From: Spiroplasma culicicola AES-1
GTDB taxonomy: Bacteria; Bacillota_I; Bacilli_A; Mycoplasmatales; Mycoplasmataceae
Length of the DNA stretch: 64,000 nucleotides
Assembly: GCF_000565175.1 (NCBI RefSeq)
Contig: NZ_CP006681.1
Span: 1-64,000 of the forward strand
Direction of reading: 5' to 3'
In this document: positions 27,374 through 30,597 of the stretch, one piece after another
How the letters are laid out: the number at the start of each line of letters is the position of its first letter
How positions within the stretch are numbered: position 1 is the stretch's first letter
Translations under genes and position numbers: made by a program
The notes under the pieces: generated by a model
Told to the model about the DNA's origin: nothing
What the model saw: the letters and a program-made list of their open reading frames with translations, nothing else
Databases searched by the model: none

Positions 27374-28633
27374 ATGAAAAGATTATTAGCAGGTTTAGCA
27401 GCAGTTACTTTAACTACTTCATCAGTTGCAAGTGTTGTTGCTTGTCAAACAAAAGCAATTCCATTAGAAATTAAAATTGATGGATTCAAATATTGAGATA
27501 AAGAAACTGGACAATTAGTTAATGAATCGAATGAAAATACAGAGGCTGCTACTTCAATATATGATAATGCCTTTACAGGAAAAATTGCAAGTGTTGGCTA
27601 TCAGTTACTTAATGCAATTACTTTTAGTGATTTAAAATATGCAGATCAAAGTAAACTAGCAGAAGCCAAAGAGACTATTGGTGAAGCTGGACTTAAATTA
27701 TCATTAGATAATTTAAAAGACATTGAAACTGCAGAAGGAGATTTAGAAGAATTTTTAGCATCTTATACTGCACCAAGAAATACTAATTTTACAGCAATTG
27801 ATTTTAAAACAAAATCAAATAACACATTTAATATTGGAGACACACCAGTATTTTTAGTCGATAGAACTTATAAAGAAAATAAACTTGTTGAAGATAAAAT
27901 AGTTGATGGATTTGATTATGAATCACCAGAGGGAGGAGATTGGTTTTCAAAATTAGAAGATCAAAATTCCGAATTAGTAACTCCTTTAAATAATTTAAAA
28001 ACTGGAAGTAAAGTATCTGAATGAAAGGATGCATTAGGATTAACAGAAGAAGAATTTAAAGAAAAATTAGAAAAAACAAATTCTGGAGATGACAAATTAA
28101 CTGATGCAGAAACAACACAAGCAAAATCATTTTTTACAAAAATGAAAGATGTATCTGAAAAAGAAGTTAAATTAATGGGAAGTTTTAGTATTCCAACAAC
28201 AATTAATAAAACTATTGTGCCTGCTGATGAAGAAGGACAAAAAAATGCTGATGAAATCTCAAATGAATGATCTCTTTATTCATCAACAACAGGTGAAGGT
28301 GAAGATAATGGTATTAAAATAAATACTGCAAATACATTTGTTTATAATAAAGGTGGCAGCTTTGCAGATCTTGAATTAACATTTACAGATGAAGAAAAAG
28401 AATTTTCTATTACTTATTCTGGATTAAATAATATCGTTTTAAGCTATGCACTTAATGGTTTTGCTTTAAAAACTGGAAGTGGAAAAGAAGAAAGAACAGA
28501 TAAATATGTTTATTGATATGAACCATATACATATTCATTTGATGCGCAAAAAAGTGCAGCAGGAAATAAAGATATTTTTAATGAATTAGCAGGATTTGAT
28601 CCAACAACTAATATTACAATTTCCAAAAAATAA
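27374..28633 (+). CDS. Predicted surface lipoprotein, unknown function
   Basis: 419-residue protein with a lipoprotein signal: basic MKR, a hydrophobic Ala/Leu/Thr stretch and lipobox VVAC with acylated Cys24. The mature part is Glu/Lys/Thr/Asn rich, with no recognised domain and no further membrane segment. It should be anchored on the outer face of the single membrane. The reading frame is open only with UGA as Trp (for example near 27496, 28020 and 28266), plus one TGG at 27941. It lies between dnaB and another lineage-specific gene, so it is an insertion in the ancestral order. Confidence 0.85.
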
Positions 28634-28691: not shown

Positions 28692-29927
28692 ATGAATTGT
28701 TACATACGTCTGAATAATGGCAATTACGAAGTTGTTGATGGAAACACCAACAAAACTATAGCAACTTTTGTGAGTGAATTTGATGCTCACAAATTTTTGC
28801 AGTCTTATTTAAATAGTGTGTATGGAGCACAGCCACCAATTCAACCACAGCAATTTGTACCAATGCCAATGTATTCAGTTCCAATGGTTTCATATGGTAT
28901 GCCAATGATGATGCCACAATCTGGATATGCACCTCAACAAGCATATGGTCAACCAGGTATGCCAACAAATTATGGTCAACCAAATAATGGAATGATGATG
29001 CAACAAGGCAATAATATGGCACAACAACCACAACAAAATAATGGTTATCCAATTGCTGGAATGGGAAATGGTCAATTTAACAATAGTTCAGCGGGATATC
29101 AACAATATCCACAAGACGATTCTAATAATGGACACAAAAAACAGGGTGTAGATATTTTTGATGATACTACTTTAACTTTTGACATGAGTGCATTTGATGA
29201 AGATAAAATTGGGGCAATTATTCAAGATAATTCTTTGATGATAAATAATACAGATGATGATAGCTTAGGTGAAGTTTCTCTTTATAGTAAAAAAGACAAA
29301 CTACAAGGAGAAAAGAAATCAAAAAAAATAGAGGACGAAACTCTCGTTAATGTAAGTTTTAGAAAAGAAGACGACCTTTACAACATTGACAGGTTACAAT
29401 TGAAAAAGGCAGAGGCTCAAATGGATGTTATTGATGATTATGATCTAGATAACATGAGTTCGATTGTAGTGAGTGAAAGTCCTAATGAAGATGTTTGAGC
29501 ACAAAACATAAAACAAACTAGTGACGTTAACAAACATAACAAACAAAATTCACATTTTGAAAAAGAAAAAAATAGTAATTCTGCTTTAGATATAAATTCT
29601 AAAGTTCAACCTTTAAATGAAAATGTTAAAGTTGAAACAAATGAATCTCAGAACAGATATAATGAAGAACCAAATAATGCATCAATTACTTCATTATATG
29701 AAAAAAACTTAATTCCTGATGATATCGTTGTTCCTAAAAAAGATGATAATTTAATTGACTTGGGACCAGTTGAAGAGGATGACGAAGTTTTTTCAACTCC
29801 AAGAAGAGATGCAGAACAAGATGATTTTGAGAACTTTTCTTTATCAAAAGGTGATAAAAAAGCATTAAAAAAACGCAAAAAGGCTGAAGAAGCAAGCAGA
29901 AAGAAATATAGTAAGCTATTGAAATAA
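28692..29927 (+). CDS. Unknown protein with prion-like Q/N/P/M/G-rich segment
   Basis: 411-residue protein that I do not recognise. Residues 1-42 form a small compact-looking N-terminal segment (NGNYEVVDGNT, then DAHKFLQSYL). Residues 44 to about 145 are low complexity, built from Gln, Asn, Pro, Gly, Met and Tyr, with repeated YGQP, PMP and QQ blocks and almost no charge. The middle is acidic and probably disordered. The last 25 residues are strongly basic (KKALKKRKKAEEASRKKYSK). No signal peptide or membrane segment. ung starts one base after its stop. Confidence 0.8.
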
Positions 29928-29928
29928 T

Positions 29929-30597
29929 ATGAATGCAATTTTTAAGGGCATATACCCAGAATGAATTAAATTATTTGAAGAAAATAATATTTTAATTGAT
30001 ATTCAAAACACATTGGATAAAATAACAGATTTTAATAATGTTTTTCCTCCTAAAGAAAACATCTTTAGGATTTTTACTTTAATTAAACCAGAAGATGTTA
30101 AAATAGTTATTATTGGTCAAGACCCATATCACACTAAAGGAAGTGCAAATGGAATTGCTTTTAGTGTTTCAAATAATGTAAAAACTCCTCCAAGTTTAAA
30201 AAATATATTTAAGGAATTAAAAAATGATCTAAATATTGATCATTTTGATAATAATGATTTATCACAATGAGTTAAACAAGGAGTATTGCTAATAAATACA
30301 ATCTTTACAGTCAAAGAATCTCAACCAGGTTCTCATAAAAATATTGGATGAGAACAAATTGTTGTTAAAATTCTAAATTGCATAAATAAAATAAACACTA
30401 ATATTATTTATTGTTTGTGGGGAAATTATGCAAAAAACTTATATAATAATCTTGATACAAAAAGTGAATATTGCATTATTTCAATGCATCCTTCACCTTT
30501 TAGTTACAAAAATGGATTTGAAAATTCAAAACCTTTTTCCAAGATTAATGGTATTCTTAATGAAATGAGAATTAGGACTATTGATTGACAAAAGTAG
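29929..30597 (+). CDS. ung: Uracil-DNA glycosylase, family 1
   Basis: 222-residue glycosylase removing uracil from DNA. The water-activating loop GQDPYH is at residues 63-68 (catalytic Asp65) and the Leu-intercalation loop HPSPFS at 187-192 (His187). LINTIFTV and CLWGNYA match the uracil pocket strands. Length is normal. Trp164 is encoded by TGG, rare in this window. It follows the Q/N-rich gene with a 1-bp gap, so they probably share a transcript. Confidence 0.94.

Follow-up and report, generated by a model that had tools for sequence, protein, structure and literature searches.

Expression of MreB5 alone in Mycoplasma capricolum produces helicity and kinks without directed swimming, and expression of MreB together with Fib likewise produces helices and kinks without directed swimming (PMC9663586). 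The latter result suggests that further factors are likely needed. The detergent-insoluble cytoskeleton of Spiroplasma eriocheiris has yielded 16 identified proteins, with the tip left unresolved; what the Spiroplasma tip dumbbell consists of has yet to be solved, and homologs of the tip proteins known from M. pneumoniae were not found there (PMC5289999). Among the terminal-organelle proteins of M. pneumoniae, P65 comprises 405 residues and is disordered over residues 1-217 (PMC11940719), while the title of reference 31 of that paper refers to size polymorphism of P65.

The locus compared with these systems is a forward-strand gene of Spiroplasma culicicola AES-1 (positions 28692-29927 of the window, the 64,000-nucleotide stretch that was analysed), supported by its translation and by orthologs. 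The ORF starts with ATG and comprises 411 codons under table 4, including one TGA read as Trp; the genome is a single contig of 1,175,131 bp, and the species belongs to the Apis clade. With a probability of about 45%, the product is interpreted as a soluble multivalent scaffold or tether in spiroplasma cells, specific to this lineage, which would hold membrane or cytoskeleton components of the helical cell through several weak sites.

Composition, conserved blocks and selection

The original prediction had described a cytosolic protein in which an uncharged, repetitive Gln/Asn/Pro/Gly/Met/Tyr segment is followed by an acidic middle and a basic tail, and this layout is confirmed. The linker at residues 44-145 (28821-29126, + strand; Q19, P15, G13, M13, N11, Y9) lacks D, E, K and R throughout residues 44-140 and contributes to a charge-free run of 107 residues, while residues 141-378 carry a net charge of -28 and residues 379-411 one of +9. 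Cytosolic placement is reasonable, since 19-residue hydropathy peaks at 0.83 and no window of the protein reaches transmembrane hydropathy. A surface adhesin, lipoprotein or secreted protein is rejected on the same maximum, together with the lack of a transmembrane helix and of a hydrophobic N-terminal signal.

The composition was further said to be unusual for this genome, and among 385 non-overlapping ORFs from ~464 kb (40%) of it the gene is indeed the most biased. It ranks first for Q+N+P+G+M+Y+S (85 per 100 residues, the next ORF reaching 59; chance from bulk composition ~1e-28) as well as for the longest charge-free run, and second for Q+N (28 per 80 residues; chance ~1e-3 over the 385-ORF sample). 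The highest Q+N among the sampled ORFs belongs to an FtsA-like ORF (L116:5341-6849) with a very Q-rich C-terminal tail, which matches NCBIfam TIGR01174 at E 3e-13, below the cut-off.

Across aligned proteins of the family, invariant residues fall in three blocks, all encoded on the + strand. Block A (residues 1-43, 28692-28820; MNCYIRLNNGNYEVVDGNTNKTIATFVSEFDAHKFLQSYLN) is predicted by single-sequence AF2, run on the 411-residue protein, to form a beta-beta-beta-alpha microdomain (pLDDT 91-96 in the full protein; mean 92.2 when modelled alone). Block B (residues 154-199, 29151-29288; FDDTTLTFDMSAFDEDKIGAIIQ..INNTDDDSLGE) is built on a short motif around NNTDDDSLGE, of which the core DDDSLGE (29253-29273; D188 D189 D190 S191 L192 G193 E194) is invariant in 17 aligned proteins. 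Block C (residues 347-411, 29730-29924) carries the IDLGPVEEDDEVFSTPRRDAE motif (core 29754-29810), of the family form IDLGP..EDDxIFSTPRxDAE, and then a Lys-rich helix that AF2 places at residues 386-410. Confidence is low for residues 103-351 and most of 46-101; pLDDT is mostly below 50 in the linker, and the acidic second variable segment (residues 200-346, 29289-29729) is likewise predicted to be disordered. The protein combines block A, a long disordered linker and a basic C-terminal helix, by which the family is defined.

Comparisons of close pairs give dN/dS values that lie mostly at 0.02-0.25 in the three blocks (~0.05-0.25 in A, 0.02-0.19 in B and 0.03-0.32 in C) and 0.2-0.8 in the linkers, with 0.91 in one pair. 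The blocks are under strong purifying selection and the linkers are not. Linker length ranges from 45 aa (G025) to 1,993 aa (G011), Q+N makes up 16-42% of it in every homolog except G024 (11%, in an acidic linker; another genus), tandem Q/N/P repeat expansions are seen in several species, and G008 and G013 carry block C twice. The G011 ortholog (L041:2704-9333) is one open frame of 2,209 aa, almost entirely linker; the G025 ortholog (L051:4612-5660) is divided into two ORFs in a draft assembly. Loss of the segment in close relatives had been named as grounds for refuting the prediction: its composition persists in nearly all of them, but its sequence is not kept, and in G024 the linker is acidic instead.

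These patterns bear on a prion-like reading, which makes the Q/N-rich segment itself the driver of phase separation or of self-templating assembly. For yeast-prion-like domains, 30 Q+N per 80 residues is often used as a threshold; homologs span 15-49 and about half reach at least 30, whereas the 411-residue protein stays at 28. The composition of the segment, its Tyr, Met and Gly and the repeat expansions would suit such behaviour, but Q+N falls short of the customary value, G024 lacks the segment, the length of the segment differs greatly between homologs, and conservation lies in the flanks. Selection on the flanking blocks, combined with the change in linker length, agrees more with a flexible spacer than with a sequence that specifically forms prions; the prion-like reading is very unlikely, and prion behaviour of the protein is unsupported.

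The codons of block A also contain a candidate RNA element, an intragenic hairpin of 9-10 pairs (28767-28793, + strand; codons 26-34), proposed from covariation in 20 genomes and from null models. Its arms are codons 26-28 and 32-34, whose synonymous third positions track the partner codon, and one pair occurs in all four Watson-Crick types (UA 8, GC 4, AU 1, CG 1). For a site that was noticed after the fact, and with scores of a kind that relatedness inflates, 82% of the pair cells across 20 genomes of the genus are paired, as against 25-44% in slid controls, the observed mean pairing is reached in 0/20,000 trials when codons are redrawn with amino acids fixed, and the site ranks 8th of 10,898 (ten genes) by codon-redraw score and 4th of 8,798 by pairing, where it shows a wider range of pair types than the other sites at the top. 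The hairpin does not occur beyond the genus, it is doubtful as a terminator because the T-run past it is not conserved, Rfam gave no match, and palindrome-correcting mutation is a rival account of it.

Relatives, neighbours and the recurrence of block A

The statement that the protein belongs to no known family holds: Pfam, NCBIfam, PDB, plasmid and phage searches gave no relative, and no homology emerged when known adhesin and cytoskeletal families were considered; such homology would have told against the prediction. Pfam and NCBIfam have no match for the 411-residue protein; the aligned family, searched against both, shares no domain with the M. pneumoniae P65/APR proteins, and single members give scattered matches (E 0.0025 or worse) to unrelated low-complexity families. 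Short, non-significant matches were returned by the PDB sequence search with block A, motifs B and C have no significant occurrence elsewhere in the sampled part of the genome, and a contig collection scanned by protein and by alignment yielded no relative, while a separate genome search gave many. A mobile origin is rejected, no plasmid or phage match having been obtained.

In 20/20 sampled genomes of its own genus the gene is placed between a dnaB-linked lipoprotein gene (27374-28633, + strand) and the uracil-DNA glycosylase gene ung (29929-30597, + strand; identified by sequence and synteny), which starts one base past the stop codon. In four more genera (g6, g7, g9 and g12) the gene lies near dnaB, and ung was not seen beside it in G024 of g6. 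Genus g8, a second Spiroplasma genus, has a divergent homolog in 14/14 genomes; where the flanks were read, the homolog follows truA and in most cases lies a few kb upstream of dnaB. The g8 N-terminal domain resembles block A (profile-profile probability 95.7%, E 8.6e-9), the reciprocal search gives a weak match to G018, and the g8 proteins have a P/Q/N/Y-rich linker and a Lys-rich tail; their homology, drawn from ~45 residues and the architecture, is less certain than that of the rest of the family. An invariant SPQVFFIQQPA follows block A in the g8 homologs L151:1954-3084, L152:1792-2916, L153:2003-3100, L162:2220-3143 and L171:3194-4483.

Since the neighbours differ between clades (dnaB-ung as against truA), they give no functional hint, and a functional link to dnaB, ung or the lipoprotein is weakened. 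The same evidence touches the proposal of a fast-evolving protein without a structural role, for example one that regulates the lipoprotein gene or the repair genes next to it. The gene does adjoin the lipoprotein gene, and lipoprotein genes are likewise neighbours of some block A paralogs; the lipoprotein nevertheless persists in non-helical species devoid of the gene and the g8 homolog is located elsewhere, which leaves this proposal improbable.

The suggested search with the N-terminal 42 residues uncovered a real, recurring microdomain. Block A paralogs in the genome are two proteins of 168-169 aa and one of 1,016 aa. The last (L113:8624-11674, genome positions ~722,624-725,674) consists of block A, a transmembrane helix and Ig-like (Big_2) repeats, and is flanked by lipoprotein, permease and ABC ATPase genes; the two short proteins, encoded near it, carry a YGNITIN motif. 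Comparable block A proteins are found in other species, several adjoining lipoprotein genes. A basic stretch just ahead of the transmembrane helix of the paralog implies, by the positive-inside rule, that block A is the cytosolic head of these surface proteins.

A nucleic-acid- or ribosome-associated adaptor has also to be weighed, on the view that block A is akin to the arm-binding domain of lambda integrase, of beta3-alpha type, and that RNA or DNA is bound by the Lys-rich tail. Its basis is a VIA Z of 4.7 to the lambda Int N-domain over 44 residues, a Foldseek TM of 0.61 and the basic tail itself. The Foldseek E value of that match is >1 and Z is <5, the fold is common and small and says little on function, block A (4 acidic and 3 basic residues, net -1) lacks the basic nucleic-acid-binding surface expected of an integrase arm-binding or AP2-like DNA-binding domain, and the paralogs place it on the cytosolic face of membrane proteins; such an adaptor seems hardly probable. 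Foldseek otherwise gave weak PDB matches (E >0.8) and, in BFVD, small phage proteins (TM up to 0.87, E 0.02 or worse).

Distribution and a putative scaffold of the helical cell

Among 60 genomes of the family, the protein is found in 40/42 MreB-rich genomes (three or more MreB matches, helical by that criterion and not by microscopy) and in 0/18 MreB-poor genomes (0-2 weaker matches). The PF01048 (Fib) profile also matches nucleosidases. Genus g11 (G029 and G036; L164 and L163) bears MreB and has no detectable copy of the gene, so the gene is not needed for the MreB set; in G029 the lipoprotein gene directly adjoins ung downstream. In a dnaB tree the 18 MreB-poor genomes, represented by 8 rows, form one clade (97/93), and the distribution of the gene hence reflects about two losses. 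The match of gene presence to MreB-rich lineages, resting on this number of losses, is suggestive and gives no statistical proof.

The scaffold or tether favoured here would operate through block A as a folded interaction head and through B, C and the basic C-terminal helix as short binding motifs for a partner protein, an acidic membrane or nucleic acid. The intervening segments, Q/N/P-rich or acidic, would serve as flexible spacers in which composition and disorder matter rather than order; several weak sites may hold together components of the helical cell at its membrane or cytoskeleton, possibly at the polar tip. We infer scaffolding, partners and location from several patterns: disorder is predicted between ordered ends; A, B and C are under purifying selection while the linkers evolve fast; linker composition is kept over lengths of 45-1,993 aa; block C is duplicated in two species; block A recurs in transmembrane and Ig-like paralogs; the gene tracks MreB-rich genomes; and the Q+N window is exceeded in the sample by a single ORF, which is FtsA-like and has a Q-rich tail. 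Against it stand the dependence of the distribution on about two losses, the retention of MreB without the gene in g11, and the 16 identified S. eriocheiris insoluble proteins, none of which fits the family in size and class. The homolog in G067, presumably S. eriocheiris itself, has 429 aa.

A tip or cytoskeletal role is plausible, since the distribution, the P65-like layout and the lack of identified Spiroplasma tip components all fit such a location. A more specific version makes the protein a scaffold of the polar tip (dumbbell core), the spiroplasma counterpart of the acidic, proline-rich terminal-organelle proteins of the P65/HMW3 type. Size and layout similar to P65, the unsolved dumbbell with its missing M. 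pneumoniae homologs (PMC5289999) and restriction to MreB-rich lineages favour it; the lack of sequence homology to P65, the coiled coils of P65 as against one short predicted C-terminal helix, the lack of a matching protein among the 16 and the gene-free g11 make it unlikely. Somewhat more doubtful still is a core organiser of the cell pole or of membrane-ribbon linkage, with block A as a docking module held in common, through which Ig-repeat surface proteins would be recruited there as well, in the manner of an attachment organelle arisen independently of M. pneumoniae.

As a putative missing organiser of the spiral cell, the 411-residue protein is a good candidate, and it bears on how the spiroplasma polar tip is built and how kinking helices swim one way. 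An unnamed conserved family, limited to MreB-rich lineages and with a docking module common to surface proteins, offers a concrete, deletable candidate. Furthermore, the family provides a clean natural series for the evolution of linker length and composition around fixed motifs.

Comparison with described systems

The Spiroplasma Fib/MreB ribbon and the 411-residue family are both restricted, apart from g11, to MreB-rich lineages, but the protein has no filament fold and was not identified in ribbon preparations (PMC5289999). With the N-terminal domain of lambda integrase and other beta3-alpha microdomains block A shares a predicted topology; unlike the integrase domain it is not basic, the protein has no integrase domain, and the match is not significant (Foldseek E 0.02 or worse, Z <5). 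A Q/N/G/Y/M/P-rich, charge-poor segment is held in common with yeast-type prion-like domains, from which the protein differs in a Q+N content just under the threshold and in conservation that lies outside the segment. P65/APR of M. pneumoniae and the 411-residue protein are both cytosolic, measure ~400 aa and contain a long proline-rich disordered region and an acidic segment (PMC11940719); P65 has N-terminal disorder and C-terminal coiled coils, whereas the spiroplasma protein begins with a folded microdomain and ends in a Lys-rich tail.
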